Origin: Gammaproteobacteria bacterium
GTDB lineage: Bacteria > Pseudomonadota > Gammaproteobacteria > GCA-001735895
Assembly: GCA_030066085.1 (NCBI GenBank)
Contig: JASJCI010000034.1
Span: 1-63,212, forward strand
DNA: 63,212 nucleotides
Direction: 5' to 3'
Part shown: piece by piece, positions 15,764 to 56,350 of the stretch
How positions within the stretch are numbered: position 1 is the first letter of the stretch
Layout: every line of letters begins with the position of its first letter
Made by a program: the position numbers and the translations under genes
Notes under the pieces: generated by a model
The model's input: the letters and a program-made list of their open reading frames with translations, nothing else
Told to the model about the DNA's origin: nothing
The model's database searches: none

Positions 15764-16189
15764 GTCGCCAGGGTCCGTGTTCAAAGCTTGCTCGTGCGCA
15801 GGAATCAACCGCTGTCGGCGGGTAGACGGTGCGGAACCGAAACACCAGCTAAACACAGATCGCCATTGGTAGCAATTGAGTATTGCCGGCACATACCCCG
15901 CGTCGGCGGTATCCTGCGGTTCATATGCTGTTCAGGACCTCGGGGGCGCTGCGAGTGGCATGCCCGGGTACGATCCGGAGCGCGTATTGCACTATAATCG
16001 TGCCGCTCGAATCGTTTCAGGTTGATGACAATCCGGGCTGCGGGCGGGCCGCCGCGCAACCGTGCATGCAGGCCAGGGCTGTGGTCGGCGATCGAATGCG
16101 CGGGATTGCATGCGGCGGCGAAACGAATAAAAATAAACGGCTGTCGACCCGGGTCGACCACTGATTTGGTAATCCACGAGGAACCTAGC
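15764..16189. promoter_or_regulatory. Divergent promoter region between malQ and glgB
   Basis: This 426-bp stretch holds no convincing gene. It contains a consensus -10 element TATAAT at 15993-15998 on the plus strand, although the matching -35 is weak. A short GTCGACCCGGGTCGAC palindrome near 16143-16158 lies just before glgB. Transcription of the glg operon probably begins here, and the malQ promoter must also lie here. No carbon-regulator site could be named. Confidence 0.45.
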
Positions 16190-18409
<2,220 letters not shown>

Positions 18410-18416
18410 CAGCGCT

Positions 18417-20516: not shown

Positions 20517-20529
20517 AACAGGGCATACG

Positions 20530-22974
20530 ATGGAGTCACGAAAGCTATCCACCAGCGGCACCCGGGTACAGGTCGACGTCGACCTGCAGCGTCACTTCGA
20601 GCTGACGCTGGGCCGCGACGAGCCGGGTTCGTCGCACCATTACCTCTACCAGGCGATGGTGCTGACCTTGCGCGACCGCATGGTCGAGCACTGGCGCGGC
20701 ACGCGTGAGCGCTACCAGCGGGAGCAGCCCCGGCGGATCAACTACCTGTCGCTCGAGTTCCTGATCGGGCGCAGTCTGAATAATGCCCTGCTCAACCTCG
20801 ATCTCGAGGAGCAGGTGCGCGCGGCGCTGATTCCGTTTGCCTGCGGCCTCGAAACCCTGGAGGAAGAGGAGCCGGACGCCGGGCTCGGCAACGGCGGCCT
20901 CGGCCGGCTCGCCGCCTGTTTTCTCGACAGCTGCGCAAGCCTGGAGATCCCGGTGACCGGTTACGGCATCCGTTACCAGTACGGCATGTTTCACCAGCGC
21001 ATCGAAAACGGTTACCAGGTCGAGCAGCCCGACAGCTGGCTGCGTAACGGCAATCCCTGGGAAATCGAAAGCCCGGAAAATGCGCGCCGGATTCATTTTT
21101 TCGGTCGCACCGAGCACTACAACGCCGGTAACGGTCACCCGCGCGCGCGCTGGGTCGATACCCACGACGTGCTCGCCATACCCTACGATACGCCGGTGCC
21201 GGGGTACCGCAACGACACGGTCAACACGCTGCGGTTGTGGAAAGCCGAGGCCACCGATGAATTCGACCTCGACGAATTCAACGCCGGCAGTTACATCGAC
21301 GCGGTTGCCGCCAAGAACCGCGCCGAGCAGATCACGATGGTGCTCTATCCCAACGACGCCAGCGAGGCGGGCAAGGAGCTGCGCCTGCGCCAGCAGTATT
21401 TCCTGGTTTCGGCCAGCCTGCAGGATGTACTGCATCGATGGGTCGAACGCAACAGCCGAGACTTCAACGAATTCGTTGCCAAGAACGGCTTTCAACTCAA
21501 CGATACGCACCCGACGGTGGCGATCGCGGAACTCATGCGCCTGTTGATCGACGATTACGACATACCCTGGGATCGCGCCTGGGAGATGACCACCGCGACC
21601 ATGGCCTACACCAACCACACGCTGCTGCCCGAGGCGCTCGAGGTCTGGCCGCTGCACCTGTTCGGTGAACTGCTGCCACGCCCGCTGGAAATCATTCGCG
21701 AAATCGATGCCTGGTTCGGCGCCGAAATCGAACGTCGCTGGCCGGGCGACCACCAACGCCGCGAGCGCATGGCGATCATCAGCGGCGGTGATTACCCGGT
21801 CGTGCGCATGGCTTACCTCGGCATCGTCGGCAGTCACTCGGTCAACGGGGTTGCCGCGCTGCACACCAGCCTGCTCAAGCAGGGACTGTTCCACGATTTC
21901 TACGAGCTCTGGCCGGAGAAATTCAACAACGTCACCAACGGCGTGTCGCCGCGGCGCTGGCTCGCGCACTGCAACCCGGGTCTGCGCGAGCTGTTGACCG
22001 AGACCATCGGCGACGGCTGGATTCGCGACCTCGACCTGCTGCAACAGCTGCGCCCACACGCCAAAGACAGCGGTTTTCGCGAGCGCTTCATGCGGGTCAA
22101 GCGGCACAACAAGGAGCGCCTGGCGAGCATGGTCGAGCGCGAATGCCGGGTCGAATTCGATCCCGACATGCTGTTCGACGTGCAGGTAAAACGGATCCAT
22201 GAATACAAGCGCCAGCTGCTCAACGTGCTGCACCTGATTCACCTCTACGATCGCATCCGCGACGGAGACACCGACGGGCTGGTGCCGCGCTGTGCGTTGA
22301 TCGGCGGCAAGGCCGCGCCCGGCTACGACATGGCCAAGCGCATCGTCAAGATGATCAACAACGTCGCCGCGGTGATCAACGCCGACGAGCGCGTGCGGCC
22401 CTGGCTGCGGCTGGCCTTCATCCCCGATTACCGCGTATCGGCGATGGAGTTCATCTGCCCCGGTACCGACCTGTCGGAGCAGATTTCGACCGCGGGCAAG
22501 GAAGCTTCCGGCACCGGCAACATGAAGTTCATGATGAACGGCGCGGTTACCATCGGCACTCTCGACGGCGCCAATATCGAGATTCGCGAAGCCGTCGGCG
22601 CGGATAATTTTTTCCTCTTCGGCCTGACCGCCGACGAAGTCGCGGAACAGGCGCGCGACTACAATCCGGGGGCGTTCATCGAGGCCGACGAAGCCCTGTC
22701 CCGCGTCATGAGCCTGTTGCAGAGCGGCCATTTCAATCGCTTCGAGCACGGTATCTTCGACCCGATCATGGATGCCATTCGCAGTCCGCACGATCCGTGG
22801 ATGACCGCGGCCGATTTTCGCGCCTACGTCGACGCCCAGCAGCGGGTCGCCGCGGCCTGGCATGACCACGAGCGCTGGGCGACGATGGCGGTACTCAATA
22901 CCGCCGCCAGCGGACGTTTTTCCAGCGATCGTTCGATTCGCGATTACCGCGACCTGATCTGGGACAGGAATTGA
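20530..22974 (+). CDS. glgP: Glycogen phosphorylase
   Basis: GlgP releases glucose 1-phosphate from glycogen ends using phosphate and PLP. From the ATG at 20530 the protein is 814 residues, the usual bacterial size; an ATG at 20503 would overlap glgX. Landmarks are RINYLSLEFLIGRSL near 70, the LGNGGLGRLAACFLDS segment near 118, KNGFQLNDTHPT near 318, QVKRIHEYKRQLLNVL near 548, and the PLP-lysine motif EASGTGNMKFMMNG near 657. Its product can be used by pgm and pgi of the same operon or returned to synthesis by glgC. Confidence 0.97.
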   Translation: MESRKLSTSGTRVQVDVDLQRHFELTLGRDEPGSSHHYLYQAMVLTLRDRMVEHWRGTRERYQREQPRRINYLSLEFLIGRSLNNALLNLDLEEQVRAALIPFACGLETLEEEEPDAGLGNGGLGRLAACFLDSCASLEIPVTGYGIRYQYGMFHQRIENGYQVEQPDSWLRNGNPWEIESPENARRIHFFGRTEHYNAGNGHPRARWVDTHDVLAIPYDTPVPGYRNDTVNTLRLWKAEATDEFDLDEFNAGSYIDAVAAKNRAEQITMVLYPNDASEAGKELRLRQQYFLVSASLQDVLHRWVERNSRDFNEFVAKNGFQLNDTHPTVAIAELMRLLIDDYDIPWDRAWEMTTATMAYTNHTLLPEALEVWPLHLFGELLPRPLEIIREIDAWFGAEIERRWPGDHQRRERMAIISGGDYPVVRMAYLGIVGSHSVNGVAALHTSLLKQGLFHDFYELWPEKFNNVTNGVSPRRWLAHCNPGLRELLTETIGDGWIRDLDLLQQLRPHAKDSGFRERFMRVKRHNKERLASMVERECRVEFDPDMLFDVQVKRIHEYKRQLLNVLHLIHLYDRIRDGDTDGLVPRCALIGGKAAPGYDMAKRIVKMINNVAAVINADERVRPWLRLAFIPDYRVSAMEFICPGTDLSEQISTAGKEASGTGNMKFMMNGAVTIGTLDGANIEIREAVGADNFFLFGLTADEVAEQARDYNPGAFIEADEALSRVMSLLQSGHFNRFEHGIFDPIMDAIRSPHDPWMTAADFRAYVDAQQRVAAAWHDHERWATMAVLNTAASGRFSSDRSIRDYRDLIWDRN

Positions 22975-23109
22975 TGCGTCCGCGGGCGCGGTGAAGGCGC
23001 CCGCTTCTGTTAACATGGGACGCCCGTCGGCAGCCGTCCGGCGGGTGTCGCTCGCCACCGGCGCGTGCGCGGCACAGGCGCCGACATGGAACGGCGCAAA
23101 GGAGGAGAC

Positions 23110-24381
23110 ATGACCAGACCCGTCGATCGGCACATCAGCCAGATCACACGCAAGACGCTCGCGCTCGTGCTCGCTGGCGGACAGGGATCGCGCCTGAAGG
23201 AACTGACCGAGTGGCGCGCCAAGCCGGCGGTGCCGTTCGGCGGCAAGTTTCGCATCATCGACTTTCCGCTGTCGAACTCCGTCAATTCGGGAATCCGGCG
23301 CATCGGCGTGCTGACGCAGTACAAGGCGCACTCGCTGGTACGCCACCTGATGCAGGGCTGGAGTTATTTCAAGCCCGAACTGGGGGAGTTCCTCGAAATC
23401 CTGCCGGCTTCCCAGCGTCTCGGCGGCGAGTGGTACCGGGGCACCGCCGACGCGCTGTACCAGAATATCGATATCATCGACACCCACCGGCCCGACTACG
23501 TGCTGATCCTGTCCGGCGACCACATTTACAAGATGGATTACGGCCCGTTGCTGGCGGCACACGTGGAGCGTGACGCCGACCTGACGATATCCTGTCTCGA
23601 AGTGCCGGTGGCCGAGGCGGCCAACACCTTCGGCGTCATGCAGGTCGACAAGAGCCTGCGCATCCAGGGATTCGAGGAAAAGCCGGCCGAGCCGGCGCCG
23701 CTGCCCGGTCAGCCGGATTACTGCCTGGCATCGATGGGCAACTACGTCTTCAATACCAGGTTCCTGTTCGACGTGCTCAAACGCGACGCCAGCCTCGAGG
23801 GCTCGCACCACGATTTCGGCAAGGACATCATCCCGTCGCTGATCGGCCAGCACACGCTGTACGCCTACCCGTTCCGCGACCCGGTCACGCGCAAGCGCGC
23901 CTACTGGCGCGACGTGGGTAACCTCGATGCTTTTTGGGATGCCAACATGGAACTGCTCGGCATCACGCCGGAACTCAATCTTTACGACCTGGACTGGCCG
24001 ATCCTGACCGCCCAGGCACAGCTGCCGCCGGCCAAGTTCGTGTTCGACGATGAACACCGGCGCGGCATGGCCACCGATTCGATGGTTTCGGGCGGCTGCC
24101 TGATCTCGGGCGCGCGGCTCAATCGCTCGCTGCTGTTTTCCAACGTGCACGTGCACTCCTACGCCGAAATCGAAGACAGCGTGATCATGCCGGAAGCCGA
24201 TATCGGCCGCGGCGCGCGCATCCGGCGCGCGATCATCGATCGCGGCTGCCGCGTACCCGAGGGCATGCAGATCGGGTTCGACAGCGAGCAGGACCGCGCT
24301 GCCGGTTTTACCGTCAGCGAGGGCGGCATCGTGCTGGTGACGCCGACGATGCTGCAGCAGAACGTGCACTACTGGGACTGA
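23110..24381 (+). CDS. glgC: Glucose-1-phosphate adenylyltransferase
   Basis: GlgC makes ADP-glucose from glucose 1-phosphate and ATP, the committed and usually allosteric step of bacterial glycogen synthesis. The start at 23110 is set by a strong AAGGAGGAG site 3-6 bases upstream, giving 423 residues, a normal length. The N-terminus has the nucleotidyltransferase signature [13 protein letters not shown] with [15 protein letters not shown]. Further motifs are [12 protein letters not shown] near 115, [12 protein letters not shown] near 136 and GFEEKP near 194. The C-terminal part is a left-handed beta helix with hexapeptide-like repeats. It is 135 bp after glgP, the largest gap in the operon. 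Confidence 0.97.
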
Positions 24382-26022
<1,641 letters not shown>

Positions 26023-26026
26023 AACG

Positions 26027-27442
26027 ATGAAAATCCTGCACGTCGCGGCGGAAGTCCTTCCGCTGGTCAAGACCGGCGGGCTGGCCGACGTCGTCGGTGC
26101 GCTACCGGCGGCGCAGCGCGCGCTGGGTCACGAGGTGTCGGTGCTGGTGCCGGGTTACCCGGCGATCCTCGAGGGTGCGGGTAAACTCTCGCCGGTCGAA
26201 GGTTTTGCCGTACCCGGCGGCCGCTTGTTACGCGGCCGGCTCGCCGGCGACGTCGAACTGCTGGTCATCGAGCAGGCCGCGCGTTACGCTCGTCCCGGCA
26301 ATCCCTATGTCGATGCCAGCGGGCAGGACTGGCCGGATAACCTGCAACGCTTCGTGCTGCTCGGCCGCGTCGCGGCCGATCTCTGCCTGTGGGATCCGCA
26401 AATCGACCTGCTGCACGCGCACGACTGGCACGCGGGGCTCGCGCCGGCCTACCTGCGGGCCGACGGTACCCGCTGCGCGAGCTGTTTCACGATTCACAAC
26501 CTTGCCTTCCAGGGTATCTACGCCTACTACGAATACGCCTTCACCGGCCTGCCGGAAGCCTTTTACCGCTTCGACGGCCTCGAGTTCCACGGCGACTGGT
26601 CTTTCATGAAGGCCGCGCTGTCCTACAGCGACGCGATTACCACCGTCAGCCCGACCTATGCGCGCGAAATCCTGCGCCCCGATCTCGGCATGCAGCTCGA
26701 TGGCGTGCTCAACTATCGCCGTGCCGATCTGCGCGGAATTCTGAACGGCGTCGATTACGCTATCTGGAACCCGGAAACCGATCGCGCGCTCGCGCGGACT
26801 TATGGCATCGACAAGCTGGCGGCCAAGACGCACAACAAGCGTGCGCTGCAGCAAGACATGGGCCTGGCGGTCGCGCCCGCTCGACCGCTGGTCGGCGTGG
26901 TCAGCCGCCTGACCCTGCAAAAGGGCATGGACCTGGTACCCGGCGCGATCGAAAGCCTGCTGGCTGCCGATCAGATTCAACTGGCCCTGCTCGGCAGCGG
27001 CGACCGCGAGCTGGAGCAGGCGTTCGCCGAGCTGGCCGAGCGTCACGCGGGCAATTGCGCGGTCAGCCTGGCCTACGACGAGTCGCTGGCGCATCGCATC
27101 GTCGGCGGTGCCGATGCGATCCTGGTACCTTCTCGCTTCGAACCCTGCGGGCTGACCCAGCTCTACGGACTGCGTTATGGCACCCTGCCGATCGTGCGCC
27201 GCACCGGCGGCCTCGCCGATACGGTTGCCGGCTACCGCGCGCAGGCGAAGCAGCCGACCGGCTTCGTGTTCGAGACCGCCAGCAGCCGCGCGCTCAAGCG
27301 CGTGCTGGGCAGGGTGGTCGAGGTTTATCGCGACGGACCGACCTGGCGCGGGCTGATGCAAAACGCGATGCGCTGCGAGTTCGGCTGGGACCGCGCGGCC
27401 AGGGACTACGACAAACTATACGCGCGAATCCGCAGGGGATGA
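26027..27442 (+). CDS. glgA: Glycogen synthase (ADP-glucose)
   Basis: GlgA elongates glycogen from ADP-glucose. It is a GT5 retaining glycosyltransferase of 471 residues. The N-terminus has the ADP-glucose site [23 protein letters not shown] lies near 126, [10 protein letters not shown] near 148, the second-domain VSRLTLQKG near 289, and the catalytic [17 protein letters not shown] near 365. The stop lies 4 bp before the pgi start. With glgB and glgC it completes the synthesis branch. Confidence 0.97.
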
Positions 27443-27446
27443 ACCG

Positions 27447-29087
27447 ATGGTACTGAATCAACTGCCCGAATGGCATGCGCTCGAGCAACGGCGCGACGCG
27501 CTCGATGGCCAACATCTGCGCGAGCTGTTCGCGGCCGATCCCGATCGTTTCGCGCAGTTTTCCCTGCGCCACGAAAACATCCTGCTGGATTACTCGAAAA
27601 ACCGCGTCGACGCGGCCACCATGGAGGCACTGCGGGCGTTGGCCGGGGCCTGCGATCTCGAGGGCTGGATCGCGCGCATGTTTGCCGGCGAAGCGATCAA
27701 CCTGACCGAGGGGCGGGCAGTGCTGCACGTGGCGCTGCGTAACCGCGCCAATACGTCGATCCTGGTCGATGGCGAGGACGTGATGCCGGGGGTCAACAGC
27801 GTGCTGGCGCGGATGCGCGATTTCGTCGCGCGCGTGCATGACGGCAACTGGACCGGCTTCACCGGCGCCAGCATACGTGATGTCGTCAATATCGGCATTG
27901 GCGGTTCGGATCTCGGGCCGGTCATGGTTACCGAGGCGCTGAAGGCTTACCGGCAGGCGAACATCAACGTGCATTTCGTGTCCAACGTGGACGCCGCGCA
28001 CCTGCACGAGACGCTGGCCGGGCTCGATCCGGCGCGCACGCTGTTCATCGTCGCGAGCAAAACCTTCACCACCCAGGAGACCATGGCCAACGCGCGCGCC
28101 GCGCGTGCATGGCTGCTGCAGACGCTCGGCGACGAGGCGGCCGTGGCGCGTCACTTCGTCGCGCTGTCGACCAATGCCGCGGCGGTCGGGGACTTCGGCA
28201 TCGATGCCGCCAACATGTTCGAATTCTGGGACTGGGTCGGCGGGCGTTACTCGCTGTGGTCGGCCATCGGCCTGTCGATTGCGCTCGCGCTCGGCATGGA
28301 TCGATTCGAGGAGCTGCTCGACGGCGCTCATGCAATGGACCGGCATTTCCGCGAGGCGCCGCTGGAGGGCAACCTGCCGGTTACGCTGGCGCTGCTCGGT
28401 ATCTGGCACGTCAACTTCCTCGGCGCCGAGAGCCAGGCGGTGGTGCCTTATGCGCAAAACCTGCACCGCCTGCCGGCATACCTGCAGCAGGCCGACATGG
28501 AAAGCAACGGCAAGAGCGCCACTCGTGACGGCGACTTCGTCGCCTGGGACACCGGCCCGGTGATCTGGGGTGAACCCGGGACCAACGGCCAGCACGCGTT
28601 TTTCCAGCTGCTGCACCAGGGCAGCCGGCTGGTGCCGGTGGACTTCATCGTTGCCGCCAACAGTACCTATCCGAACGATGCGCAGCACGAGATGTTGCTG
28701 GCCAACTGCCTCGCGCAAAGCGCGGCGCTGATGACGGGTAAAACCGGCGACGAAGCGCGCGCGGAAATGGCCGCCGCCGGCCTCGACGCGAGCGAAATCG
28801 AGCGCCTGCTGCCGCATCGCACCTACCGCGGCAACCAGCCCAGTAACACGCTGCTGGTCGAAACGCTCGACCCGCGTACGCTGGGAGCGCTGATCGCGCT
28901 CTACGAGCACAAGATCTTTTGCCAGGGCATCATCTGGCAGGTCTGCTCTTACGACCAGTGGGGCGTCGAGCTCGGCAAGCAGCTCGCGGGACAGCTGCTG
29001 CCGCGCGTGCGCGGCGAGACGGCGGATGGGACCGTGGACGCGTCGACCGCCGGTTTGCTGGCACAGCTGCGGCACTGGCGCGGCTGA
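27447..29087 (+). CDS. pgi: Glucose-6-phosphate isomerase
   Basis: Pgi interconverts glucose 6-phosphate and fructose 6-phosphate, joining the glycogen operon to glycolysis. The protein is 546 residues. Recognised motifs are [14 protein letters not shown] near 149, [14 protein letters not shown] near 204, [13 protein letters not shown] near 265, ESNGKSA near 351, [19 protein letters not shown] near 373 and the C-terminal [13 protein letters not shown]. It is the last gene of the operon; downstream is a large palindromic element that likely ends transcription. Confidence 0.97.
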
Positions 29088-33126: not shown

Positions 33127-33428
33127 GGTCCATACCTCCACTAGCCATGATACCCGTGCAGACGCCCGGAAATAAATGCTGGGCGATACTAAACCGTTAC
33201 CGGCGTCCTCTCGCATTGGCGTAACCCTGTGAGAGTTACTGATATATACCTCCGCTGGTTCTAAGCGGATTCGGGGGGGTACGCCGTCAATCGACATTCA
33301 GGTTATGGAAGCTGTTTTTTCGGCCGGGAATAAGAAGCTGACTTTCGCGCCCGCCTGCTATTATCTGTTTCCTGGCGCGAGATATTTTTGCTGGACTGGT
33401 TTGTGTCTGTTACCGCGCCACCGAATTG

Positions 33429-33602
33429 ATGGGGATTTATGTGAAAAGAAAATTGTTCCTGGCTCTTCTGCTAATCCAGTTGGTGGCCTGCTCTGCGGAA
33501 GTGGGCAGTGAAAGGTGGTGTGAGAATCTCAAACAAAAACCAAAAGGAGAGTGGACTGCAAACGAAGCGAAGGACTTCGCGAAACACTGCCTGTTCAACT
33601 AG
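33429..33602 (+). CDS. Small lipoprotein, DUF3012-like
   Basis: A 57-residue protein. Residues 1-20 form a lipoprotein signal (basic MGIYVKRK, hydrophobic core, lipobox LVAC at Cys21). The mature part contains EVGSERWCENLKQKPKGEW and TANEAKDFAKHC, which I recognise as the DUF3012 pattern of small gammaproteobacterial lipoproteins, with two cysteines that could pair. A GTG at 33441 is an alternative start four codons in. Its function is unknown. It begins the AT-richer accessory stretch. Confidence 0.72.
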   Translation: MGIYVKRKLFLALLLIQLVACSAEVGSERWCENLKQKPKGEWTANEAKDFAKHCLFN

Positions 33603-34039
33603 TTAAATCTATAAGTCAGTAAAAAAAACAGAATTCAGAAAAAACACACATAGCAAATGCTTACGGTTGCGAACGACTCGTTCCTCGCCGGCAATTCCAA
33701 TAACGGGCGCTCATGAACTATCAACAGGCGACGATCTTCGGCCACTTCCCGCCGCCCAACGCCGTCATCCCCGCGCACGCGGGGATCTTGCAATGGCGGC
33801 GCGTTACCAGATTCCCGCTTTCGCGGCGGTCCGCCGAAGCGGAATGATGCTTTATCGGTAGCGCGAGAGACGTATTCGGGTCGATCTTAGCCGCCTGTTT
33901 CACTAGTCTAAGCGTCAGCTTTTCCGATAGCAGACGCCCGGGCATAAAGGCCAGCAGGCGACTTTCGGCCAACGGCGGGAGCCCGGCATCAGATAAAATA
34001 TTCTCGAGTCACTAACTCTATGATCACGCTGTCGGCGAT
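33603..34039. other. Intergenic stretch with a gene-remnant candidate and a palindromic repeat
   Basis: This 437-bp region has no intact gene. On the minus strand at about 33846-33972 an open stretch (LTLRLVKQAAKIDPNTSLALP) looks like the tail of a lost protein, but it is too short to name. A 25-bp palindromic repeat lies at 33764. The rest shows nothing I can interpret. Confidence 0.4.
33764..33788. repeat. GTCATCCCCGCG-type palindromic repeat
   Basis: A 25-bp element with CCCCGCG/CGCGGGG arms around CA. The same family occurs at 62401, 62505, 62941 and 63077. It is a dispersed repeat common in proteobacterial intergenic DNA. Confidence 0.8.
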
Positions 34040-34870
34040 CTAGAACACGTATATGAATCCGATACCTACTTCGGCTTCATAGTCCTCGCGTGCGATTGGG
34101 CTATCCCGAACGTCGCTACTGTAATGCTCATAAACCGCCTCGCCGAAAATCTGCCAATTCCTGTCGATGTTATGCCGGTAAATGTAGTTGAACCCAACCG
34201 AACGAAATCCGCTATCCACGTCGGTCTCCTCCAGTCCCGAATTAGCTGACTGCTCTGCGTCTATGCCAAAATCATTATTGGCATGATCGCTATCGTGAAA
34301 GACTACAGCGACCGCAATTTCATGACCGGTTCCGTCCTTCTGCTCGCCAAAGCGGCGCCCCACTGCCAAAAGACCAAGACTGCCGTTATCTTCGGTTACG
34401 ACTACTCGACCGTCCAGCCAATAACGCCAGTCAGCATCGAAAGCACGTCGTGCCTGCAGTGCGAATTCAAATTCCTCATCTTAATCGCCGAGACCATCCA
34501 GACGATCGTCATCGGAATCGTCTTCTTCACGGCCCTCATCGAAGGCCACGGCGGCGTCAAATAGCCAGATATCAGAACGAAGACCACGCCACCCCAGCGC
34601 CTCACCCGCCCAGTAGAAAATATCATCACCGCTGCGCCATTGAACCGCACCGGCAGGATCGACTTCGAAGTCGTATTCATCCGACCCTTCGTACGCAGCC
34701 TCGTATTCAACACCAAGGCCCAGCCCGAATGCCCAGCCATCGTTACCCCTGGTGAAGTCGCCGATCGAGGGTAGAGGCACCAAAGCCGTGTTTCCATCTT
34801 GTGCTAATGCGGTTTGAAAGAATAAAGCATGTATGAACACTGCCAACAGTAAACCTGTAAACGTTTTCAT
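34040..34870 (-). pseudogene. OmpV/MipA-like outer-membrane barrel protein, interrupted by one in-frame TAA
   Basis: The reading frame runs from the ATG at 34870 to a stop at 34040, 276 codons, and is open except for a single TAA at 34481-34483 after codon 129. Upstream are a signal peptide (residues 1-23, ending ALAQ) and barrel-like sequence GLGLGVEYEAAYEGSDEYDF; downstream the frame continues with DEEFEFALQARRAFDADWRYWL and ends in an aromatic residue after beta-strand repeats (EDYEAEVGIGFIYVF), as porins do. Family members I recall read RLDGLGDxDE with a polar residue at the stop position, so CAA to TAA is the likely change. It could be a recent pseudogene, a readthrough gene or a base error. 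Confidence 0.75.
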
Positions 34871-34930
34871 CTAAATTCCGCTCCAGTATGTGAAGGGGCA
34901 AAATAAAACCACAAGTTATGTGGAAATAGG

Positions 34931-34957
34931 GTGAACTATACGTGAAGCTTTTGTGAA
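34931..34957 (-). promoter_or_regulatory. Three GTGAA direct repeats at exact 11-bp spacing
   Basis: GTGAA begins at 34931, 34942 and 34953, one helical turn apart, and lies 61-87 bp upstream of the OmpV/MipA-like start. In the gene's own sense the units read TTCAC. Tandem half-sites at 11-bp steps are the usual binding pattern of OmpR/PhoB-type response regulators. The cognate regulator is unknown. Confidence 0.45.
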
Positions 34958-34991
34958 GAAACCAAAAAATTGACACTTTACTTTTTGGTGT

Positions 34992-35005
34992 TTGATCCTC
35001 ATCAA
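34992..35005. promoter_or_regulatory. Consensus FNR/Anr box
   Basis: TTGATCCTCATCAA matches the FNR consensus (TTGAT, four bases, ATCAA) exactly. It lies 122 bp upstream of the OmpV/MipA-like start and 285 bp upstream of the membrane-protein gene on the other strand. The remaining AT-rich sequence between 34871 and 35289 holds the 11-bp repeats and no convincing gene. Confidence 0.6.
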
Positions 35006-35289
35006 TTTCCTACGCCTACTCTGGAAAGAAGAAACTCCAATTTGAACAAATTACAGTCTCCCACCATTAATTGCAGGACATCGACTCACAATCGCATGCA
35101 GTCAGTCCAGGCCGCTCACTTTCCAGCCGGGGTGAGCGTCTCAAACGGCTCGAGTCCGGAAGATCATCAATATCTACCCGGATATCGGAGGCTGCTATAA
35201 ATCTCACCAGGGGCGAACCGCGGCCTTAGACGGATTCTCGATTTTTGACGGCAAGTGCGTAAATTAGGGATAAAAAGCAGGCTTGAAAC

Positions 35290-35784
35290 ATGTATTTCTG
35301 GAATATCAGACAGTTGGCGCAGGAACTCGCAAACAATCGCATATCAGAACGGAAAGGTATGCATTATTTTCTGGCTTCTACACTTCTCGTGCTGCTGGCG
35401 ACCTACTACTCCCTATGGTGGGGTGTTGCTCGAACATGGTTATTTTATTTTGAGCTGGTTGTCTTGATCGTGATAGCCGTGTTCGGCACGCTCAGGGCTT
35501 TTGCGGCAAATGGTGGAGATTCAGGAAAATCTTTTGTTCTGCGAGCAATCTGTTTGTCTGTTCCGGCAGGAATTCGCGTCAACGTGCTGAGTATCGGATT
35601 TGGACTGGTCCTCTATTTCAACGCGGAACAGATTTTTTATTCACTTTCCTTCGGCGACCCCAACAGGGCATTTGGAATAGTCACCTACGCAGGCTTTGTG
35701 GGTTTCAGCATTTATTACTGGTGGTTATTGGTGCGTGGCATGAGACATGTTGTTGGCACGCAATCCGCTAAATCGAATAGCTGA
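35290..35784 (+). CDS. Hypothetical four-helix membrane protein
   Basis: A 164-residue protein with four predicted membrane helices at about residues 26-45, 48-68, 85-110 and 122-147, a basic N-terminal cytoplasmic segment and a short polar tail. I do not recognise the family. Codon use and base composition are more AT-rich than in the metabolic operons, as in its neighbours. A CRP/FNR-type site lies upstream at 34992 but is 285 bp away. No operon partner is present on this strand. Confidence 0.6.
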   Translation: MYFWNIRQLAQELANNRISERKGMHYFLASTLLVLLATYYSLWWGVARTWLFYFELVVLIVIAVFGTLRAFAANGGDSGKSFVLRAICLSVPAGIRVNVLSIGFGLVLYFNAEQIFYSLSFGDPNRAFGIVTYAGFVGFSIYYWWLLVRGMRHVVGTQSAKSNS

Positions 35785-35793
35785 ACCGGGCCA

Positions 35794-35849
35794 GGGGTCA
35801 CTTAATCGGGTAAAGCAAGAATGAGCATTACTTGCCCGAATGTGACCTC
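35794..35849. repeat. Imperfect REP-like palindrome
   Basis: GGGGTCAC and GTGACCTC arms with further partial pairing (AATCGGGTAA against TTACTTGCCCGAAT) form a long imperfect hairpin of about 56 bp just after the membrane-protein gene. It resembles the GGGGTCA-type dispersed elements of gammaproteobacteria. The rest of 35785-36201 shows the short tandem repeat listed separately and no gene. Confidence 0.6.
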
Positions 35850-35899
35850 GAATATGGTCTGTTGCAGACCAGCAAACACATGGTAGGTAAATCCTGCGG

Positions 35900-35930
35900 G
35901 TCGAACCTGAAGTCGAACCTGAAGTCGAAC
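35900..35930. repeat. Short tandem repeat, 12-bp unit
   Basis: The unit GTCGAACCTGAA is present twice in full and once as its first seven bases, in non-coding sequence. The unit count may vary between strains. Confidence 0.7.
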
Positions 35931-36201
35931 ATCATTTAAACCTGGCATGTGGGTCCGGTGATTGGAACATCACCCACAAAACTGCCACTCATGAAGGCAG
36001 AATCAACAGATTCGTCCAGTTGCTGAATACCGAATGCTCGCCCAGGGTCGATCCGAGTCATCCATCTGCTCGATTACAACGTAGTCTTTGCTTATCTCGT
36101 AACCCTGCCCCTTATCGACCGAGGTAATCTATGCCCTGTGGCGAATTGACACGGGAATTTTTATCAAGACGTCAGTCTTGCTTTCTACAAAGGTTCAAAA
36201 G

Positions 36202-36558
36202 ATGAAAAAATTACTCCTGGCTTCTGTTGTTTTATTTGGTATCGGTAGTGCCGCGGCTGGTGGTCATGCCATGTTGACCGGAGACCAGATCCAGCAAAAG
36301 ATCGGTGGCAATACGGTTCAGGGATCAATGGCTGATGGTAGTCGTTACACGGAGTTTTACGCGGCCGACGGCACCATTCGCGGGGCCGGATATACCGGCA
36401 GCTGGCGTGTCAATGACAACCAGATGTGCTTTAAATATGGCGAAGACCCCGAGAATTGCTGGTCCGTCGAAATTACGGGTGACCAGGTGCACTGGATCGT
36501 CGATGGCAAAAAAGACGGTTCGGGAACGCTCGTGACTGGCAATCCGAACGAATTCTGA
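36202..36558 (+). CDS. Small secreted protein of unknown function
   Basis: A 118-residue protein with a clear signal peptide (MKKLLLASVVLFGIGSAAAGG, cleavage near residue 19-21). The mature domain of about 97 residues begins MLTGDQIQQKIGGNTV and contains a DGSRYTEFYAADGTIRG stretch, a GSWRV turn and a CFKYGEDPENCW pair of cysteines that could form a disulfide. This pattern of G-N-T-V, D-G-T-I-R-G and C-W is shared by small periplasmic proteins I have seen in proteobacteria without assigned function. It is monocistronic, with its own strong terminator 23 bp after the stop. Confidence 0.78.
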   Translation: MKKLLLASVVLFGIGSAAAGGHAMLTGDQIQQKIGGNTVQGSMADGSRYTEFYAADGTIRGAGYTGSWRVNDNQMCFKYGEDPENCWSVEITGDQVHWIVDGKKDGSGTLVTGNPNEF

Positions 36559-36580
36559 TATTCGAGGTTCGAGAGCAAAA

Positions 36581-36617
36581 GCCGTCCAGTCGGTTGTTCG
36601 ACTGGACGGCTTTTTTT
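36581..36617 (+). terminator. Rho-independent terminator
   Basis: A perfect 12-bp stem (GCCGTCCAGTCG and its complement) with a 6-base loop is followed by seven T residues. It ends the secreted-protein gene. Confidence 0.93.
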
Positions 36618-36767
36618 ATGCATCCGTGTTGCACATCGAAAACCGATGGTACGATGGTCGTCTTCAGGCGTGGTTGAAACGACGCTTCTGTGAGTGGTGG
36701 TCAGAGGTCTGTCGTGGGAAAAGCCGCCAGCGAGCCAGCTCTGCCAGGCGGAATCAGGGTGATCAAG

Positions 36768-37004
36768 ATGGGTCAGATAGAGGGAGTAGTGGAAAACTTC
36801 GACTGGCATCGTGGAATCATCACAACAAATACCCCCATCGATCGTGAATATAGAAATACGCAAAACGTACGACGCTTCTTCAAAGCGAACTGCGGCAGGG
36901 ATTTCAAATTCGACCGCGAATTTATGGGCTGGATGAAAAGTAATGTTGGATTGACGATGGGAGAGGCGGTGGATGAATGGTTGAGGAGACGATCAAACGA
37001 GTAG
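36768..37004 (+). CDS. DUF6434-like small protein
   Basis: A 78-residue cytosolic protein. The stretches FDWHRGIITTNTPID, YRNTQNVRRFFKANCG, FKFDREFMGWMKSN and GEAVDEWLRRR match the pattern I associate with DUF6434, a small domain of unknown role sometimes found with SAP domains. The frame is open back to 36690, but the extra residues are low-complexity and unlike the family, so I used the ATG at 36768; a GTG at 36759 is also possible. The gene stands alone. Confidence 0.62.
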   Translation: MGQIEGVVENFDWHRGIITTNTPIDREYRNTQNVRRFFKANCGRDFKFDREFMGWMKSNVGLTMGEAVDEWLRRRSNE

Positions 37005-37225
37005 AGCAATAGAAGTCTGCCCGGGGCCGAGATCGGTAATTCTTGATTTTTCCTGTCACGCTTTGACGTCGACTAGAGCTCGTAGCGGATGTTCCCTGGG
37101 GGTGTCATCGATCGACGTTAGTGTGAAACGCATCGCAGAAGGCGGCATCGAGCAGCCTGTGTCAACGAAAAATACCGGAAACAAACTAAACTAGGTATAA
37201 CTAATGCTGTAGTTGACGAGGCGTT

Positions 37226-50791: not shown

Positions 50792-51790
50792 TCATTCGGT
50801 GACCTTGCTCCTGCCGATCCAGGTATCCGCAATGCCGTGTTTGCCGACAATTGCCGCGGAGTAATCCCGCGCTGCCTGGCGCGATGAAAATCCCGACACG
50901 GCAATCCGGTAGCGCGTGGATCCCTGCTCATCACTCGAAACAATCAGGGTTTGATGACCCGCGTCGCGCAGTTTTTGGTTCACTTCGCTGGCGACTTCTT
51001 CGGAGCGGGTCGAAAACAGGTAAACCGTGTAAACGAACGCGGATGAAATGTCGCCGGTTACCGGGGTAGACTGCCGCGCAGTATCTTCCTGCTCCGTCCC
51101 GGTCTCCGGGCTGGCGACCGCTTCTGGCTGGCTGCCGCTCGTTCCGTTGTCGGTGTCTGCTTCGCGCACGGCAGTCGCATCGTTACCGAACTCGATTCGG
51201 ATCTCGGCTTGCATTCTGCCCAGCTCGAAAAAACCGGTGTTGTCGAAACGGTATACGCTTCCCGCTTCGCCCAGGACGACCATGCTGGATTCGATGGTAT
51301 TGGTGATTTGCACGGTGCCGCTGACAAGCACGATGCGGGATAGATCGGTGGAATACTCGGCACAGACATGTCCCTTTTCGTGGATGATCATAATGATCGC
51401 GTCCCCGAACTGCAGATTGAGCTGTTTGGCCGCTTCCGCTTGAGCGTGAAACCGTACACAAGTCCTGCCGCCGTGGAACCTGGCGCTTGCTTGCGCCCCG
51501 GTGATTGCTGTTTCGGTCTCGGCAGACCCGGTGAACTCGATTTCCGAGTTGGCGTCGAGCTGCAGGTCAATCCCGGAATCCAGATGCAGGGCAAGCCTGC
51601 CGGAATCGCCGGTTATCAACCGGTCGTCGATACGAATCGCGTCGGCCGCGGAAATCCTGCTCCTGGTACCGTCACGCTGCACCCAGACCGGCGCTTCGAG
51701 CGCGGTAATCGTGACGCTGGCGGCGGTAAATGCCGCGGAACTCCAGAGTATGCCGGATAACAGGATCAAGCCGATCACTGATGTGCGCAT
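50792..51790 (-). CDS. Secreted FecR-like protein with a C-terminal SPOR domain
   Basis: A 332-residue exported protein. A signal peptide (residues 1-23, MRTSVIGLILLSG onward) precedes a FecR-like beta domain (VTITALEAPVWVQRDG, DRLITGDSGRLALHLDSG, about 25-190), an acidic, low-complexity linker (about 200-250), and a SPOR domain of about 80 residues (YTVYLFSTRSEEVASEV, RYRIAVSGFSSRQAARDY). SPOR domains bind denuded peptidoglycan at division sites. Combining it with a FecR-like domain places this protein at the cell wall, but no sigma/anti-sigma partner is adjacent. Two cysteines (near 135 and 162) may form a disulfide. Confidence 0.8.
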   Translation of the reverse strand: MRTSVIGLILLSGILWSSAAFTAASVTITALEAPVWVQRDGTRSRISAADAIRIDDRLITGDSGRLALHLDSGIDLQLDANSEIEFTGSAETETAITGAQASARFHGGRTCVRFHAQAEAAKQLNLQFGDAIIMIIHEKGHVCAEYSTDLSRIVLVSGTVQITNTIESSMVVLGEAGSVYRFDNTGFFELGRMQAEIRIEFGNDATAVREADTDNGTSGSQPEAVASPETGTEQEDTARQSTPVTGDISSAFVYTVYLFSTRSEEVASEVNQKLRDAGHQTLIVSSDEQGSTRYRIAVSGFSSRQAARDYSAAIVGKHGIADTWIGRSKVTE

Positions 51791-51933
51791 GGGCGGGCGT
51801 TCACGGATCCTCGAAAGTGCCACTATCATAGCCAATCTCGTGGCGGTGCGATATTCGCCGGTGGTCGAATCCCGGCGGCCGATGATTACCCGGGCGCCCG
51901 GCTTTACGTATTTTGCGCGATTGCCGCCGCAAC

Positions 51934-52299
51934 TCACTTGGACCTGGACTTGAGAATGAAATCCTCGAGTTTCTTGTCGATGCCGAGTACGTGCAGCTTG
52001 AGCCACTTGTAGAGAAAATCGGACAGCGATACCTGCAGCGCCGGGTGCATGGTCGGGTCGGTTTGCATCATCGCCGCGAGCTCTTCGCGGAAACGATTGT
52101 GGGCCTCCAGGTGGGCCTCGAAGCCGGGATAATCCAGCTGCCGCATGTAGGTTTCCTCGAGGATGAAGTGGTGTTCGGCGTATAGCTTGAGGCGCACCAG
52201 CACATCGGGATCGAACGGGGTTTCCTTGATGCGATCGATCAGGTCGAAAAGAGCCTGGTGCTGGGTATCCTGCCAGATCAGGTCGCTGGTTTTCTGCAT
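51934..52299 (-). CDS. Bacteriohemerythrin
   Basis: A 121-residue single-domain hemerythrin, which binds O2 (or senses it) at a di-iron centre. The iron ligands fit the pattern: His in DTQHQALFDLID near 14, His-x3-Glu in HHFILEETYM near 45-50, His in HLEAHNRF near 65-69, and His-x4-Asp in HVLGID near 105-110. The ATG at 52299 has GGAGGGGG upstream. An FNR-type box lies 60 bp before the start, consistent with a protein made when oxygen is scarce. It may deliver oxygen or protect oxygen-labile enzymes such as Por. Confidence 0.92.
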   Translation of the reverse strand: MQKTSDLIWQDTQHQALFDLIDRIKETPFDPDVLVRLKLYAEHHFILEETYMRQLDYPGFEAHLEAHNRFREELAAMMQTDPTMHPALQVSLSDFLYKWLKLHVLGIDKKLEDFILKSRSK

Positions 52300-52404: not shown

Positions 52405-53001
52405 TCAGTCGGCCTCGGGTACGAACGACATCAACGACAGCGAGCTGTCGATCAGCGGTTTGGCGAACGCGTGGTTGTTGTACAGCAGCAGTGCGTAGGC
52501 GTCGGCGGCATCGTTGCGATGCATCGCGACCAGGATGGCGTTGCTGTAATCGGCCGAGTAGTCCGGATCGATTTCGAACACCGATACCGCGGCCCAGTCG
52601 GCGTTGAAATTCTGCGCGGCTTCTTCCTCGGTCATGGTAGTGCTCGGCGTATCGCCGCCGCGCACGGCGAGCTGATTGGTCAGCGATTCGAACAGCAGCG
52701 GGAACAGGTGGTTGGGTTCGGGCGCGGCATTGTGCGGGTCGTTGTACTCGATCTGGATCCGGCTCAACGGCCGCACGATGTAGCGGATTTCGAGCGCGCC
52801 GGAAGCGTGACGAATCGCGTGTTCGTAGGGTATGCCGCCGGTATCGCCGGCCGGCACCGGGCTGAACCCGGGGGCTGTCGCCAGCCTCAGGCTGGACTCT
52901 TCGAGGAGATCGGAGAATGCGGCTGGCAGGTCGCGACCGATCGCCAGCGCCGACGAGCAGCCCAGCAACAGGGCCAGCAGCCAGGCGGGGAAGCGGATCA
53001 T
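52405..53001 (-). CDS. Secreted protein of unknown function, last gene of the multiheme operon
   Basis: A 198-residue exported protein. A signal peptide (MIRFPAWLLALLLG, cleavage after about 20 residues, ALA) precedes a domain that begins with a helical EESSLRLATAPGF stretch and a strand-rich core (GALEIRYIVRPLSRIQIEYND). The start ATG overlaps the stop of the TPR gene by 4 bp, so it is cotranslated with the lipoprotein and cytochrome. The opening cysteine near residue 21 is not in a good lipobox. I do not recognise the family. A role in assembly or docking of the cytochrome is an inference from the operon only. Confidence 0.72.
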   Translation of the reverse strand: MIRFPAWLLALLLGCSSALAIGRDLPAAFSDLLEESSLRLATAPGFSPVPAGDTGGIPYEHAIRHASGALEIRYIVRPLSRIQIEYNDPHNAAPEPNHLFPLLFESLTNQLAVRGGDTPSTTMTEEEAAQNFNADWAAVSVFEIDPDYSADYSNAILVAMHRNDAADAYALLLYNNHAFAKPLIDSSLSLMSFVPEAD

Positions 53002-53783
53002 GAATGACTCTCCTGCCACTGGTTCAGCAGTTCCTGCGCCATCTCCACCCAGCCGGGCTCGGTTTCGAGGCCCAGGAAGTGCTCGAGATCCTTGATCGCG
53101 AGCTCGCGGTTGCCCATGGCCTCGTGCGTCGATGCGCGATTGAACCAGGCCGCGGCGACCCCTGGCTCGATCTCGATGCAGCGGTTGAAATCGGCCAACG
53201 CGGCCGGGTAGTCCTCGGCCTCGAACGACAGGCTGCCGCGGTTGAAGTAGGCCGCGACGAAGCGATCGTCGAGTTCGATGGCACCATCGAGGTCCTTGCG
53301 TGCATCCTGGTCGCGGCCGAACTGGCGCAGCGCCTGCGCGCGGTTGGTCAGCAGCACCGGGTCGTGCGGGTTGGCGTCGATCGCCTGGTTAAGGTCCGAC
53401 AGCGCCAGGCTGGTCTGGCCGCTTTGCAGGTAGATACTGGCCCTGAGGCTCAGCAGCATGGCGTTACCGGGGAAGCGGCGCAGGCCTTCATCGAGGGTTT
53501 CGACCGCCAGCTGCGCGCGCGATTCGTCGAGATGCTGCAGCGCTACCCGCGCCAGCTGGTCGACGTCGAGTTTGGCATGCGGATCGCCGGACCTGTGCGC
53601 GCCGCCGGTCTGCGTGCGCAGGTCCGAGCGGGGCGGGTCCTGCAGGAATGCCTGCATACTTGCGCTTTGCCCGGTCTCGTCCTCGACCGAAGCGACCTTG
53701 TCGCTGTCGCATGCCGCCAGCATGATGACCAGCGTCCCTGCCGCCATCCAGGCGCCGGGCGCCCGCGTGTTTCGCCGAATCAT
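52998..53783 (-). CDS. TPR-repeat lipoprotein
   Basis: A 261-residue protein with lipobox LAAC (Cys25, signal MIRRNTRAPGAWMAAGTLV). After a polar linker (about 30-75) come five or more tetratricopeptide repeats, recognisable by ARVALQHLDES, LRASIYLQSGQTSLALSDLNQAI, LTNRAQALRQFGRDQDARKDLDGAI, FNRGSLSFEAEDYPAALADFNRCI and WFNRASTHEAMGNRELAIKDLEH. TPR lipoproteins often serve as docking scaffolds in the periplasm. The start overlaps the 12-heme cytochrome stop by 4 bp, so this protein is likely to bind or mature that cytochrome. Confidence 0.9.
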   Translation of the reverse strand: MIRRNTRAPGAWMAAGTLVIMLAACDSDKVASVEDETGQSASMQAFLQDPPRSDLRTQTGGAHRSGDPHAKLDVDQLARVALQHLDESRAQLAVETLDEGLRRFPGNAMLLSLRASIYLQSGQTSLALSDLNQAIDANPHDPVLLTNRAQALRQFGRDQDARKDLDGAIELDDRFVAAYFNRGSLSFEAEDYPAALADFNRCIEIEPGVAAAWFNRASTHEAMGNRELAIKDLEHFLGLETEPGWVEMAQELLNQWQESHS

Positions 53784-56161
53784 TGTTGCTTGGCGTAAGC
53801 CTTGAGCATCTTGTTCATGAGCTCGATATGCTCGGCGTCGTTGAGGCTGCCGGGCTCGGAGACCTTGGCCCAGAGTTCGGCGTTGGTCATCTCGCGGTGG
53901 CAGCCCATGCACAGGCCGGTGCGATCCATCGCGTCGCGCATCTCCTTGGTCAGCGAGCGCGACAGGGGCCAGTGACTGCCGACCGTCTGGGTCTGCTGGT
54001 CGTCTACCACGATCGTGGACAGGTCGAAGTCGAGTTTCGGAATCGACGTGATCTGGATCTGGTAATTCTCCGGGATCGGTTTGCCGGTGGTCTGGTCGAT
54101 CAGGTCCTCGACCACGTTTTCGACGTAGCGCAGCTGGAACACGTTGCCGGAGATGCCGTAACCCTGGGCCTTGGGGTTGTCGTGGCAGCTCTCGCAGGTG
54201 CGCGCCTTGCGTTGCGCGGAGTGTGGCTGCACCGGCGCCATGTCGATGCCGAGCGGCGTGCGCTCCTGCCCGAGCTGCTCCTGCTCGTCGTAGGCCAGCG
54301 CGATCTCGTTGGCGGCAAGCGTCTTGCCGTCGCGCGAGCGCACGGTCCAGATGACCTGGCAACCCGGCATCAGCGGGGTCACGCGACCTTCGCCGTTGAT
54401 ACCCAGGACCGGCTCTTCCCAGCGCAGGTAAGAGCGGGTTTCGGAGACCTTGCCCGGGCTCTGGATTCCCTTGACACCCAGCGGCGACTCGGCGGTGGAG
54501 CCGTCGGGGTTGCGCGCGGTACCGGAGGCGATCCAGTCGGTGTCCTGCTTGGGCTTGCCGTTCTTGTCCGGGCCATAGTCGACGTCGACGTGGCAGCCGT
54601 AACACTGCGGTACCCAGGAAGCGTGGCAGGCGTAACACTCGAGGCTTTCGGCGTGCTTCTTGACGCTCGCCATCGCGACCATGGCCTGTGAATTGCGCCA
54701 GGCGTCGTCCTCGGCCAGTTTCTTCAGCAGCGGTACCTTGAAGTCGTTGCCGGTGGCCGAGTGCATGATGACGGTATCGCCATCCTTGACCACGTTGCCG
54801 TACGGGTTGCCACGCGCACTCAGCAGGTAGCCGTCGCGCTTGTCGTACATGGTTGCGAACTGCGCGGTTTCGCGCAGTACGTTGTCGGCCAGGCCACGCG
54901 GGGTGTCACCGATATCCTTGGCGAATTCCTCGCCGTGACCGAGCGGCAGCTCCCACGGATACTGTTCCGGCGTGCCGTGGCAATCCTGGCACTCGACCTC
55001 GACCTGGGCCAGCGTGGTGCCGGGGATGTTACCGTCACCGTGCATGTCGATCGTGGTATGGCAGTCCTGGCACAGCAGGCCGCCCTGCGGGTTCTCCGGC
55101 CGGCTCTTGATCTGGTGGTGCAGGTCGTCGGAGATGAACAGGTAGTTCTTGGTGTGCAGCTTGGGCTGCTTGCCGCCGGTCGGGGTCCACGGCGAACCGT
55201 AGGGGAATTCCATCAGGCCCTGGTAGGTTACGCCAATGCGCTTGCCGCGGTTATGGCAGGAATTACAGGTCTCGACCGGGATACCGGAGTAAGTGGTGTC
55301 GCCGACGGTGACCTTGGACTTGCGCGTGGCCTGGATCTGGTGCGTCAGCATGTGGCCCTTCTGCGCCTTGTCGATAGTCGGGTCGTTGCCCTCGTAGATA
55401 CCCTCGTTGCCGTAGGGGATGTGGCAGGACGAGCAGCCCTGGCCGCGGTAGTCGCCGCGCTTTTCGCGACCCTTGACCGTCACGTGGCAGCGCTGGCACT
55501 GCTGGCGCTGGTAGGTGAAGCCGGCCAGCTTGGGATCAGCCTCGATCTCGTCGACGCTCGGCAACGGGATCTGGTCCAGCTTGCTCGGGAACTGTTCCTT
55601 GTGCGCGGCCATCATGTCCTTCATGTAGGCCTTGTAGGCATCGGTGCCGACCGAGGGGACCGGGCCGTCGCCGTCGACCACGTCGTAGTTGCCCCACGGA
55701 ACCTTGTGGTACATGACCTCGGGAATACCCCAGGTGTGCAGGTTGCCCTGGATCTTGCCGGCCTCGGTGTTCATCAGCGACTTTTCGACGCGCTCCTCGT
55801 AGCCCTTGTGGCAGGCTGCCTGGCCGCAGGTGAACTTGTTGATGTCCATCGCGCCCGGGTCCGGGTAAAAGGTCTGCGGGCCCATGGCGTCGACCAGCGA
55901 CTTGGGCGAACTCGCGTGTGCCGCCTCGGCCTCGGTTGCGGTCGGATCGCCGCCGTGACACAGAATACAGCCGTTGCTGTCGCCGTGTTGCGCCGACAGC
56001 GCGTTGATCAGCGCCATCATGCCGCTCTTCTGGTCGCGGATGTCCTCGATGCCGTTGTGGCAGGACAGGCAGCCGGTGTTGGCCTGGACGGTCGCGAGCG
56101 GAGAAACAACGAGAAGAGCCAGCGCGATCAGGGCCCCGGTGAGATTTCTGCACGTTTTCAT
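53780..56161 (-). CDS. Periplasmic 12-heme c-type cytochrome
   Basis: A 793-residue exported cytochrome with a signal peptide ending near residue 28. I count twelve heme motifs: CLSCH 31, CILCH 65, CGQAACH 112 (a Cys-x4-Cys-His form), CQRCH 222, CSSCH 243, CNSCH 299, CQDCH 364, CQDCH 391, CYACH 509, CYGCH 520, CESCH 656 and CMGCH 751. The wide spacing and long beta-rich stretches after 525 suggest a folded domain with only two hemes at the C-terminus. AAGGAA precedes the ATG. It heads an overlapping operon with a TPR lipoprotein and a secreted protein, preceded by an FNR-type box. I do not recognise a named enzyme; electron transfer to a periplasmic acceptor or a reductase role are both possible. 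Confidence 0.92.
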   Translation of the reverse strand: MKTCRNLTGALIALALLVVSPLATVQANTGCLSCHNGIEDIRDQKSGMMALINALSAQHGDSNGCILCHGGDPTATEAEAAHASSPKSLVDAMGPQTFYPDPGAMDINKFTCGQAACHKGYEERVEKSLMNTEAGKIQGNLHTWGIPEVMYHKVPWGNYDVVDGDGPVPSVGTDAYKAYMKDMMAAHKEQFPSKLDQIPLPSVDEIEADPKLAGFTYQRQQCQRCHVTVKGREKRGDYRGQGCSSCHIPYGNEGIYEGNDPTIDKAQKGHMLTHQIQATRKSKVTVGDTTYSGIPVETCNSCHNRGKRIGVTYQGLMEFPYGSPWTPTGGKQPKLHTKNYLFISDDLHHQIKSRPENPQGGLLCQDCHTTIDMHGDGNIPGTTLAQVEVECQDCHGTPEQYPWELPLGHGEEFAKDIGDTPRGLADNVLRETAQFATMYDKRDGYLLSARGNPYGNVVKDGDTVIMHSATGNDFKVPLLKKLAEDDAWRNSQAMVAMASVKKHAESLECYACHASWVPQCYGCHVDVDYGPDKNGKPKQDTDWIASGTARNPDGSTAESPLGVKGIQSPGKVSETRSYLRWEEPVLGINGEGRVTPLMPGCQVIWTVRSRDGKTLAANEIALAYDEQEQLGQERTPLGIDMAPVQPHSAQRKARTCESCHDNPKAQGYGISGNVFQLRYVENVVEDLIDQTTGKPIPENYQIQITSIPKLDFDLSTIVVDDQQTQTVGSHWPLSRSLTKEMRDAMDRTGLCMGCHREMTNAELWAKVSEPGSLNDAEHIELMNKMLKAYAKQQ

Positions 56162-56275: not shown

Positions 56276-56289
56276 TTGACCTAGATCAA
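56276..56289. promoter_or_regulatory. FNR/Anr box upstream of the 12-heme cytochrome operon
   Basis: TTGACCTAGATCAA differs from consensus by one base. It is centred about 121 bp before the cytochrome ATG. The 327-bp gap 56162-56488 holds this box, the palindromes at 56301-56350 and no gene. Confidence 0.65.
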
Positions 56290-56300
56290 GTCGCGGCAAG

Positions 56301-56350
56301 TACCCCCACATAATGTGGGGCGATGGGAATCCTTCTCATTTATGGGGGTA
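56301..56350. promoter_or_regulatory. Paired dyads in the cytochrome promoter region
   Basis: A perfect CCCCACA/TGTGGGG hairpin with a 3-base loop (56304-56320) sits inside a wider dyad, TACCCCCA at 56301 and TGGGGGTA at 56343. The TACCCCC element resembles a NarL-type heptamer. It could be a second operator for the cytochrome operon or a terminator for the Rieske operon arriving from the right. Confidence 0.4.

Follow-up and report, generated by a model that had tools for sequence, protein, structure and literature searches.

The window analysed here is the stretch of 63,212 nucleotides at positions 1 to 63,212 of contig JASJCI010000034.1, from a Gammaproteobacteria bacterium (assembly GCA_030066085.1, lineage GCA-001735895). 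It contains a minus-strand operon which encodes a 12-heme c-type cytochrome, a tetratricopeptide repeat (TPR) lipoprotein and a secreted protein, and which likely forms a periplasmic redox unit. The features of the operon and its surroundings are:

53780..56161, minus strand: 12-heme c-type cytochrome of the ExtM superfamily, 793 amino acids, exported
52998..53783, minus strand: TPR lipoprotein, 261 amino acids, lipobox LAAC with Asp at position +2
52405..53001, minus strand: secreted protein of 198 amino acids, predicted PsbP/LpqN/Mog1-like fold
51934..52299, minus strand: hemerythrin-domain protein, 121 amino acids, putative fourth gene of the local unit
56276..56289, minus strand: FNR/DNR-type box TTGATCTAGGTCAA, ~115-128 nt upstream of the cytochrome start
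55808..55828, minus strand: codons of the Cx4CH heme motif CGQAACH, residues 112-118
54359..54361, minus strand: codon of Cys601, an invariant lone Cys within the block YLRWEEPVLGINGEGRVTPLMPGCQ

The operon and its cytochrome

The cytochrome shows a signal peptide, eleven CxxCH motifs and CGQAACH, which confirms the twelve heme motifs in one exported protein described in an earlier sequence-only reading of the stretch. The reading frames of the TPR lipoprotein and the secreted protein, named there as its neighbors, are both present, and the 4-bp overlaps between the three genes are read as ATGA at both junctions; the most likely starts are ATG 53783 for the TPR gene and ATG 53001 for the secreted-protein gene. 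Outside the heme motifs, the cytochrome has no cysteines except Cys4, in the signal peptide, and Cys601. An AlphaFold model built without hemes, with a predicted local distance difference test (pLDDT) score of 66, shows a beta-rich region; however, it spans residues ~440-640 and does not form the clean C-terminal half previously described. A C-terminal helix is predicted at residues 775-792.

Comparison of 51 sequences shows that the 24 Cys and 12 His of the heme motifs, 11 other His (82, 274, 336, 348, 349, 374, 467, 503, 647, 730, and 778) and Cys601 are invariant, and that residue 270 is His in many sequences but not in all. The most conserved blocks of 25 residues are 373-397, 578-602, and 302-326. 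Block 578-602 contains Cys601 and no heme motif, with 76% invariant positions, and block 302-326 contains heme 6 followed by NRGKRIGV. Across phyla, purifying selection on the cytochrome is strong.

The CGQAACH motif had been suggested to bind the active-site heme. However, a plain CxxCH is found at this site in many relatives, such as CGQCH in locus L012, and the Cx4CH state is a two-residue insertion that changed at least seven times on the tree; therefore, it is ruled out as an active-site mark.

Placement within the ExtM superfamily

The Pfam search of the cytochrome gave general multiheme domains only, and its best NCBIfam match was ExtM (NF040943, curated cut-off of 800 bits), with 214 bits and an E-value of 2.8e-63. 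Three distant members of the family gave 206-227 bits, also below the cut-off. The homology to ExtM lies in two stretches, model positions 9-108 and 131-517, and extends to the wider ExtM superfamily, with an alignable heme framework and 11 heme sites in common with the ExtM-like protein of L120. This ExtM-like protein (L120/L122, 555 amino acids), from another genome, has its first 11 heme sites arranged as in the window cytochrome, but lacks the DDLHHQ block, the Cys601 block and the C-terminal heme of the latter. Because its score is below 800 bits and this protein lacks such blocks, the window cytochrome is, at the sequence level, a distinct family within the ExtM superfamily and not ExtM itself. 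The L122 gene (9939-11606), ExtM-like and with 11 hemes, stands alone, outside any ext cluster, and gives 211 bits against ExtM.

At E<1, neither Pfam nor NCBIfam gave a match to NrfA, HAO or octaheme tetrathionate reductase. For the decaheme cytochromes MtrA and MtrC/OmcA, TIGR03507 gave 14 bits against a cut-off of 209, and there was no MtrA/DmsE match. The CxxCK motif, the usual active-site motif of NrfA, is absent from the sequence. These searches did not place the cytochrome firmly in any known reductase family that shares its neighbors, in agreement with the previous view that no nameable enzyme fits. Among PDB sequences, octaheme tetrathionate reductase and HAO gave no match, the single cytochrome sequence found none, and a profile found only chance-level cytochrome and alcohol dehydrogenase matches. 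Foldseek and VIA-align gave no match to the cytochrome model, whose pLDDT is too weak to call a new fold. Furthermore, no description of the family was seen in the open-licence PubMed Central (PMC) papers found on ExtKL, on dodecaheme cytochromes, and on Woeseia and Olavius.

In the comparison with MtrA and MtrC/OmcA, PF22113 (MtrC/MtrF domain II/IV) alone passes its cut-off, at residues 219-397. This match, the lack of similarity to any catalytic multiheme family, and the possibility of up to 12 bis-histidine (bis-His) hemes would suit a periplasmic protein for electron transfer or storage without a catalytic site, which takes electrons from inner-membrane quinol dehydrogenases to other reductases or to the outer membrane. 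The strongest alternative to a reductase is such a pure electron carrier, which we consider possible, although rather unlikely. Simple electron carriers usually tolerate change; however, 35% of the positions of this cytochrome are near-invariant, including long stretches free of heme motifs and the lone Cys. The three most conserved blocks, among them the block with Cys601 and no heme motif and that of heme 6, favor an enzyme over a plain carrier.

As ExtM is the best family match, the cytochrome could also be a gammaproteobacterial ExtM counterpart in selenite or tellurite reduction, and a porin gene adjoins it in 12 loci, as ExtI does in Geobacter (PMC5877670). Nevertheless, every member tested is far below the ExtM cut-off, which no protein passes in 369 genomes of the window's class, and the adjoining porin belongs to PF16930, while ExtI is described as like the phosphate-selective porins. 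No ext genes were seen among the neighbors examined, where ExtKL, ExtI and ExtP had no separate searches, and the ExtN model matches only the window cytochrome in this genome, which thus shows no separate ExtN. In addition, the mutant characterized in PMC5877670 is that of ExtI, and the evidence concerns ExtI, the role of ExtM not being directly shown. We regard such a counterpart as improbable. The same porin might point to a porin-cytochrome conduit which carries electrons over the outer membrane to minerals; however, it is missing from the window operon and most loci, it lies outside the MtrB/PioB family, and no outer-surface cytochrome was seen beside the cytochrome gene, which makes a conduit very unlikely.

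Distribution, partner genes and regulation

At least 201 GTDB genome stretches encode relatives of the cytochrome, and the best 80 were kept for comparisons of loci; genes in the related loci were called by our own codon-usage caller, which makes the starts, gaps and lipobox counts of these loci approximate. These best 80 of 201 belong to Gammaproteobacteria, Alphaproteobacteria, Planctomycetota, Bacteroidota, metagenome-assembled genomes (MAGs) labelled Thermaceae (Deinococcota) and a Dadabacteria MAG. Carriers include cultured Aliiruegeria and Tropicimonas, and the Gamma 3 symbiont of Olavius algarvensis. When 274 genomes of the window's class were sampled evenly (the class sample), 18 of them (~7%) carried the cytochrome, and its presence is patchy even among the genomes of the same genus that were searched. 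Since identity between phyla is ~60% or more, this patchy presence suggests horizontal spread, although the tree alone is no proof of transfer. The plasmid collection gave only weak Sphingobium matches, over a stretch in common with LVIVD-type proteins.

Of 81 loci, 60 have the TPR gene next to the cytochrome gene in the same orientation, and in 49 the secreted-protein gene comes after it, several loci being cut by contig edges. As close homologues keep this gene order in many genomes, a chance arrangement is excluded. In the class sample, the secreted protein was found in 11 of the 274 genomes, all of them among the 18 cytochrome carriers and, with the exception of one apparent assembly break, on the contig of the cytochrome. 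Because of this confinement to cytochrome-bearing genomes, the secreted protein is regarded as dedicated to the cytochrome system. The conserved order and this confinement bear out the proposal that the partners are purpose-built. The ATGA overlap between cytochrome and TPR genes is uncommon in the family, where only two of 60 cytochrome genes have this ending; for the TPR gene, ATGA is the ending in 30 of 49 loci.

The model of the secreted protein has a pLDDT of 90.6 and matches LpqN/MTC28 and PsbP with Z scores of 9-11 over ~130-145 residues. The predicted PsbP/LpqN/Mog1 fold is shared at ~10% identity, and no known function carries over. A simple lipobox test, which misses some genuine-looking boxes, found a box in 18 of 60 TPR proteins; a lipoprotein anchor is therefore not supported as a general feature of the TPR protein.

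Fourteen loci, mostly alphaproteobacterial, show a small Rap1a-domain protein in place of both the TPR protein and the secreted protein, a swap that corresponds to one change on the tree. Because of this swap, the partners look accessory and replaceable, with the cytochrome as the core. The operon had been read as a complete periplasmic electron-transfer or reductase unit: a periplasmic redox unit is likely, but its completeness is doubtful given these 14 loci.

The hemerythrin gene (51934-52299) is located at position +3 in all eight near loci of the window's group, the window included; therefore, the local unit may contain four genes. Its conservation is limited to this group, and its product is a possible O2 or NO binder. 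Downstream of it, positions 50792-51799 encode a secreted protein that combines a SPOR domain with a weak FecR domain. Genes like those of membrane molybdoenzymes (large, ferredoxin and membrane subunits) are found near the cytochrome operon in L051 (4187-9054) and L061 (20210-22274), and could encode an electron donor system.

Upstream regions of 75 loci were scanned with the 14-nt pattern TTGATnnnnATCAA, allowing at most one mismatch. An FNR/DNR-type box was found upstream of the cytochrome gene in 34 of the 75, against 1.3 expected from shuffles. This excess is somewhat overstated, since shuffling preserved nothing but base composition and related loci do not count as independent cases. Divergent Crp/FNR genes, some of them with an N-terminal Cys cluster, are found in 12 Rap1a-type loci, the majority of that type. 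Furthermore, genes read by eye as CcmC/E/F/G/H/I adjoin the cytochrome gene in ~20 loci, and ResB/CcsA-like genes, also read by eye, in L074 and L075. In the window, a perfect inverted repeat (CCCCACA-TTA-TGTGGGG, 56304-56320) lies just upstream of the FNR-type box, and could be an operator or terminate transcription of the upstream gene.

These boxes and the hemerythrin gene, whose product could bind NO, might suit an NrfA- or HAO-like reductase of nitrogen oxides (nitrite, NO or hydroxylamine), and cd1-family genes are present in seven of the 18 carriers and in 47 of the other 256 class-sample genomes (p 0.06, kinship ignored). However, FNR boxes name no substrate, most sampled carriers lack cd1-family genes, and neither CxxCK nor an NrfA or HAO family match was found; we consider this activity unlikely.

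Elsewhere in the window, positions 33300-37200 are richer in A+T (49-53% GC, compared with ~64%) and contain few convincing genes; a minus-strand outer-membrane-type protein encoded there seems broken near 34040-34870. Positions 14273-29087 contain a glycogen metabolism cluster, with genes of the branching, debranching, GlgC, GlgA and phosphoglucose isomerase types recognized by eye.

Proposed function and comparison with known systems

From the sequence evidence, we give about an even chance to the operon encoding a periplasmic multiheme reductase that is induced under anaerobic conditions, together with its dedicated helpers. In such a system, an FNR/DNR regulator would switch the operon on as oxygen falls, and Ccm (or CcsBA) would load heme onto the apoprotein. 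The NrfA system shows Crp/FNR control and NrfEFG, and its TPR proteins NrfG/CcmI bind the C-terminal helix of the apocytochrome (PMC12285233). The TPR protein studied here may work in the same way, holding the apocytochrome perhaps by its own C-terminal helix, or may instead tether the enzyme to the membrane, and the PsbP-like secreted protein may assist in folding or stabilization. The quinol pool would supply electrons to a chain of bis-His hemes, through which they would reach one special heme. As 11 invariant His are candidate distal ligands for 12 hemes, one heme may be open, or ligated by Met or Cys. Candidate active-site residues are Cys601 and the invariant Arg/Lys cluster N304-R305-G306-K307-R308 by heme 6, which together would suit an oxyanion substrate.

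A sulfur oxyanion or selenite/tellurite is our leading but weak guess for this substrate. The heme-ligating Cys of TsdA can carry a sulfur intermediate (PMC4423706), and SoxB over its cut-off is present in 13 of the 18 carriers against 99 of the 256 other genomes (Fisher p 0.006). Several points weigh against the proposed reductase. The SoxB association was computed ignoring kinship, and the heme-free AlphaFold model is weak around the hemes, so that the ligation of any heme and the position of Cys601 are conjectural. One heme may simply have Met or the non-conserved H270 as ligand, and the conservation of 12 hemes fits a pure electron carrier equally well. In addition, no expression, mutant or biochemical data for the family were found in the open-licence PMC literature.

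Taken in full, an FNR-controlled terminal reductase family of sediment and vent bacteria from several phyla, in which the lone Cys at or near a heme reduces a sulfur, selenium or tellurium oxyanion, is a tentative and rather doubtful proposal. A protein carried by ~7% of the sampled class genomes and by other phyla is unnamed in the open-licence PMC papers searched. Should the cytochrome prove to be a terminal reductase, a widespread form of anaerobic respiration in marine sediments and vents would have gone unnoticed. The family offers a testable active site (Cys601, Arg305/Lys307/Arg308) in cultured carriers, Aliiruegeria and Tropicimonas.

ExtM of Geobacter sulfurreducens (extHIJKLMNOPQS) is a 12-heme cytochrome (PMC5877670) homologous to the window cytochrome over the two stretches described; the latter differs in its score (214 against 800 bits), in its other operon partners and in the lack of an ext cluster. 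A profile match at residues 21-531 (E 8e-31) relates it to LVIVD-tailed multiheme proteins, found in L011, L014 and L016 as open frames of ~1250 amino acids with one half of at least 10 hemes and an extra half of LVIVD-like repeats, for which no operon with TPR and secreted-protein genes was seen. Cys601 is absent from both the ExtM-like and the LVIVD relatives. No sequence relation to the Cys-ligated cytochromes TsdA and SoxA was found; the likeness lies in a conserved Cys, possibly one facing a heme. Finally, NrfA has five hemes instead of 12, and the window cytochrome, without CxxCK or a sequence match, is not a member of its family, but by analogy of layout it would resemble the NrfA system: a periplasmic multiheme enzyme under Crp/FNR control, with TPR and Ccm-type genes nearby.

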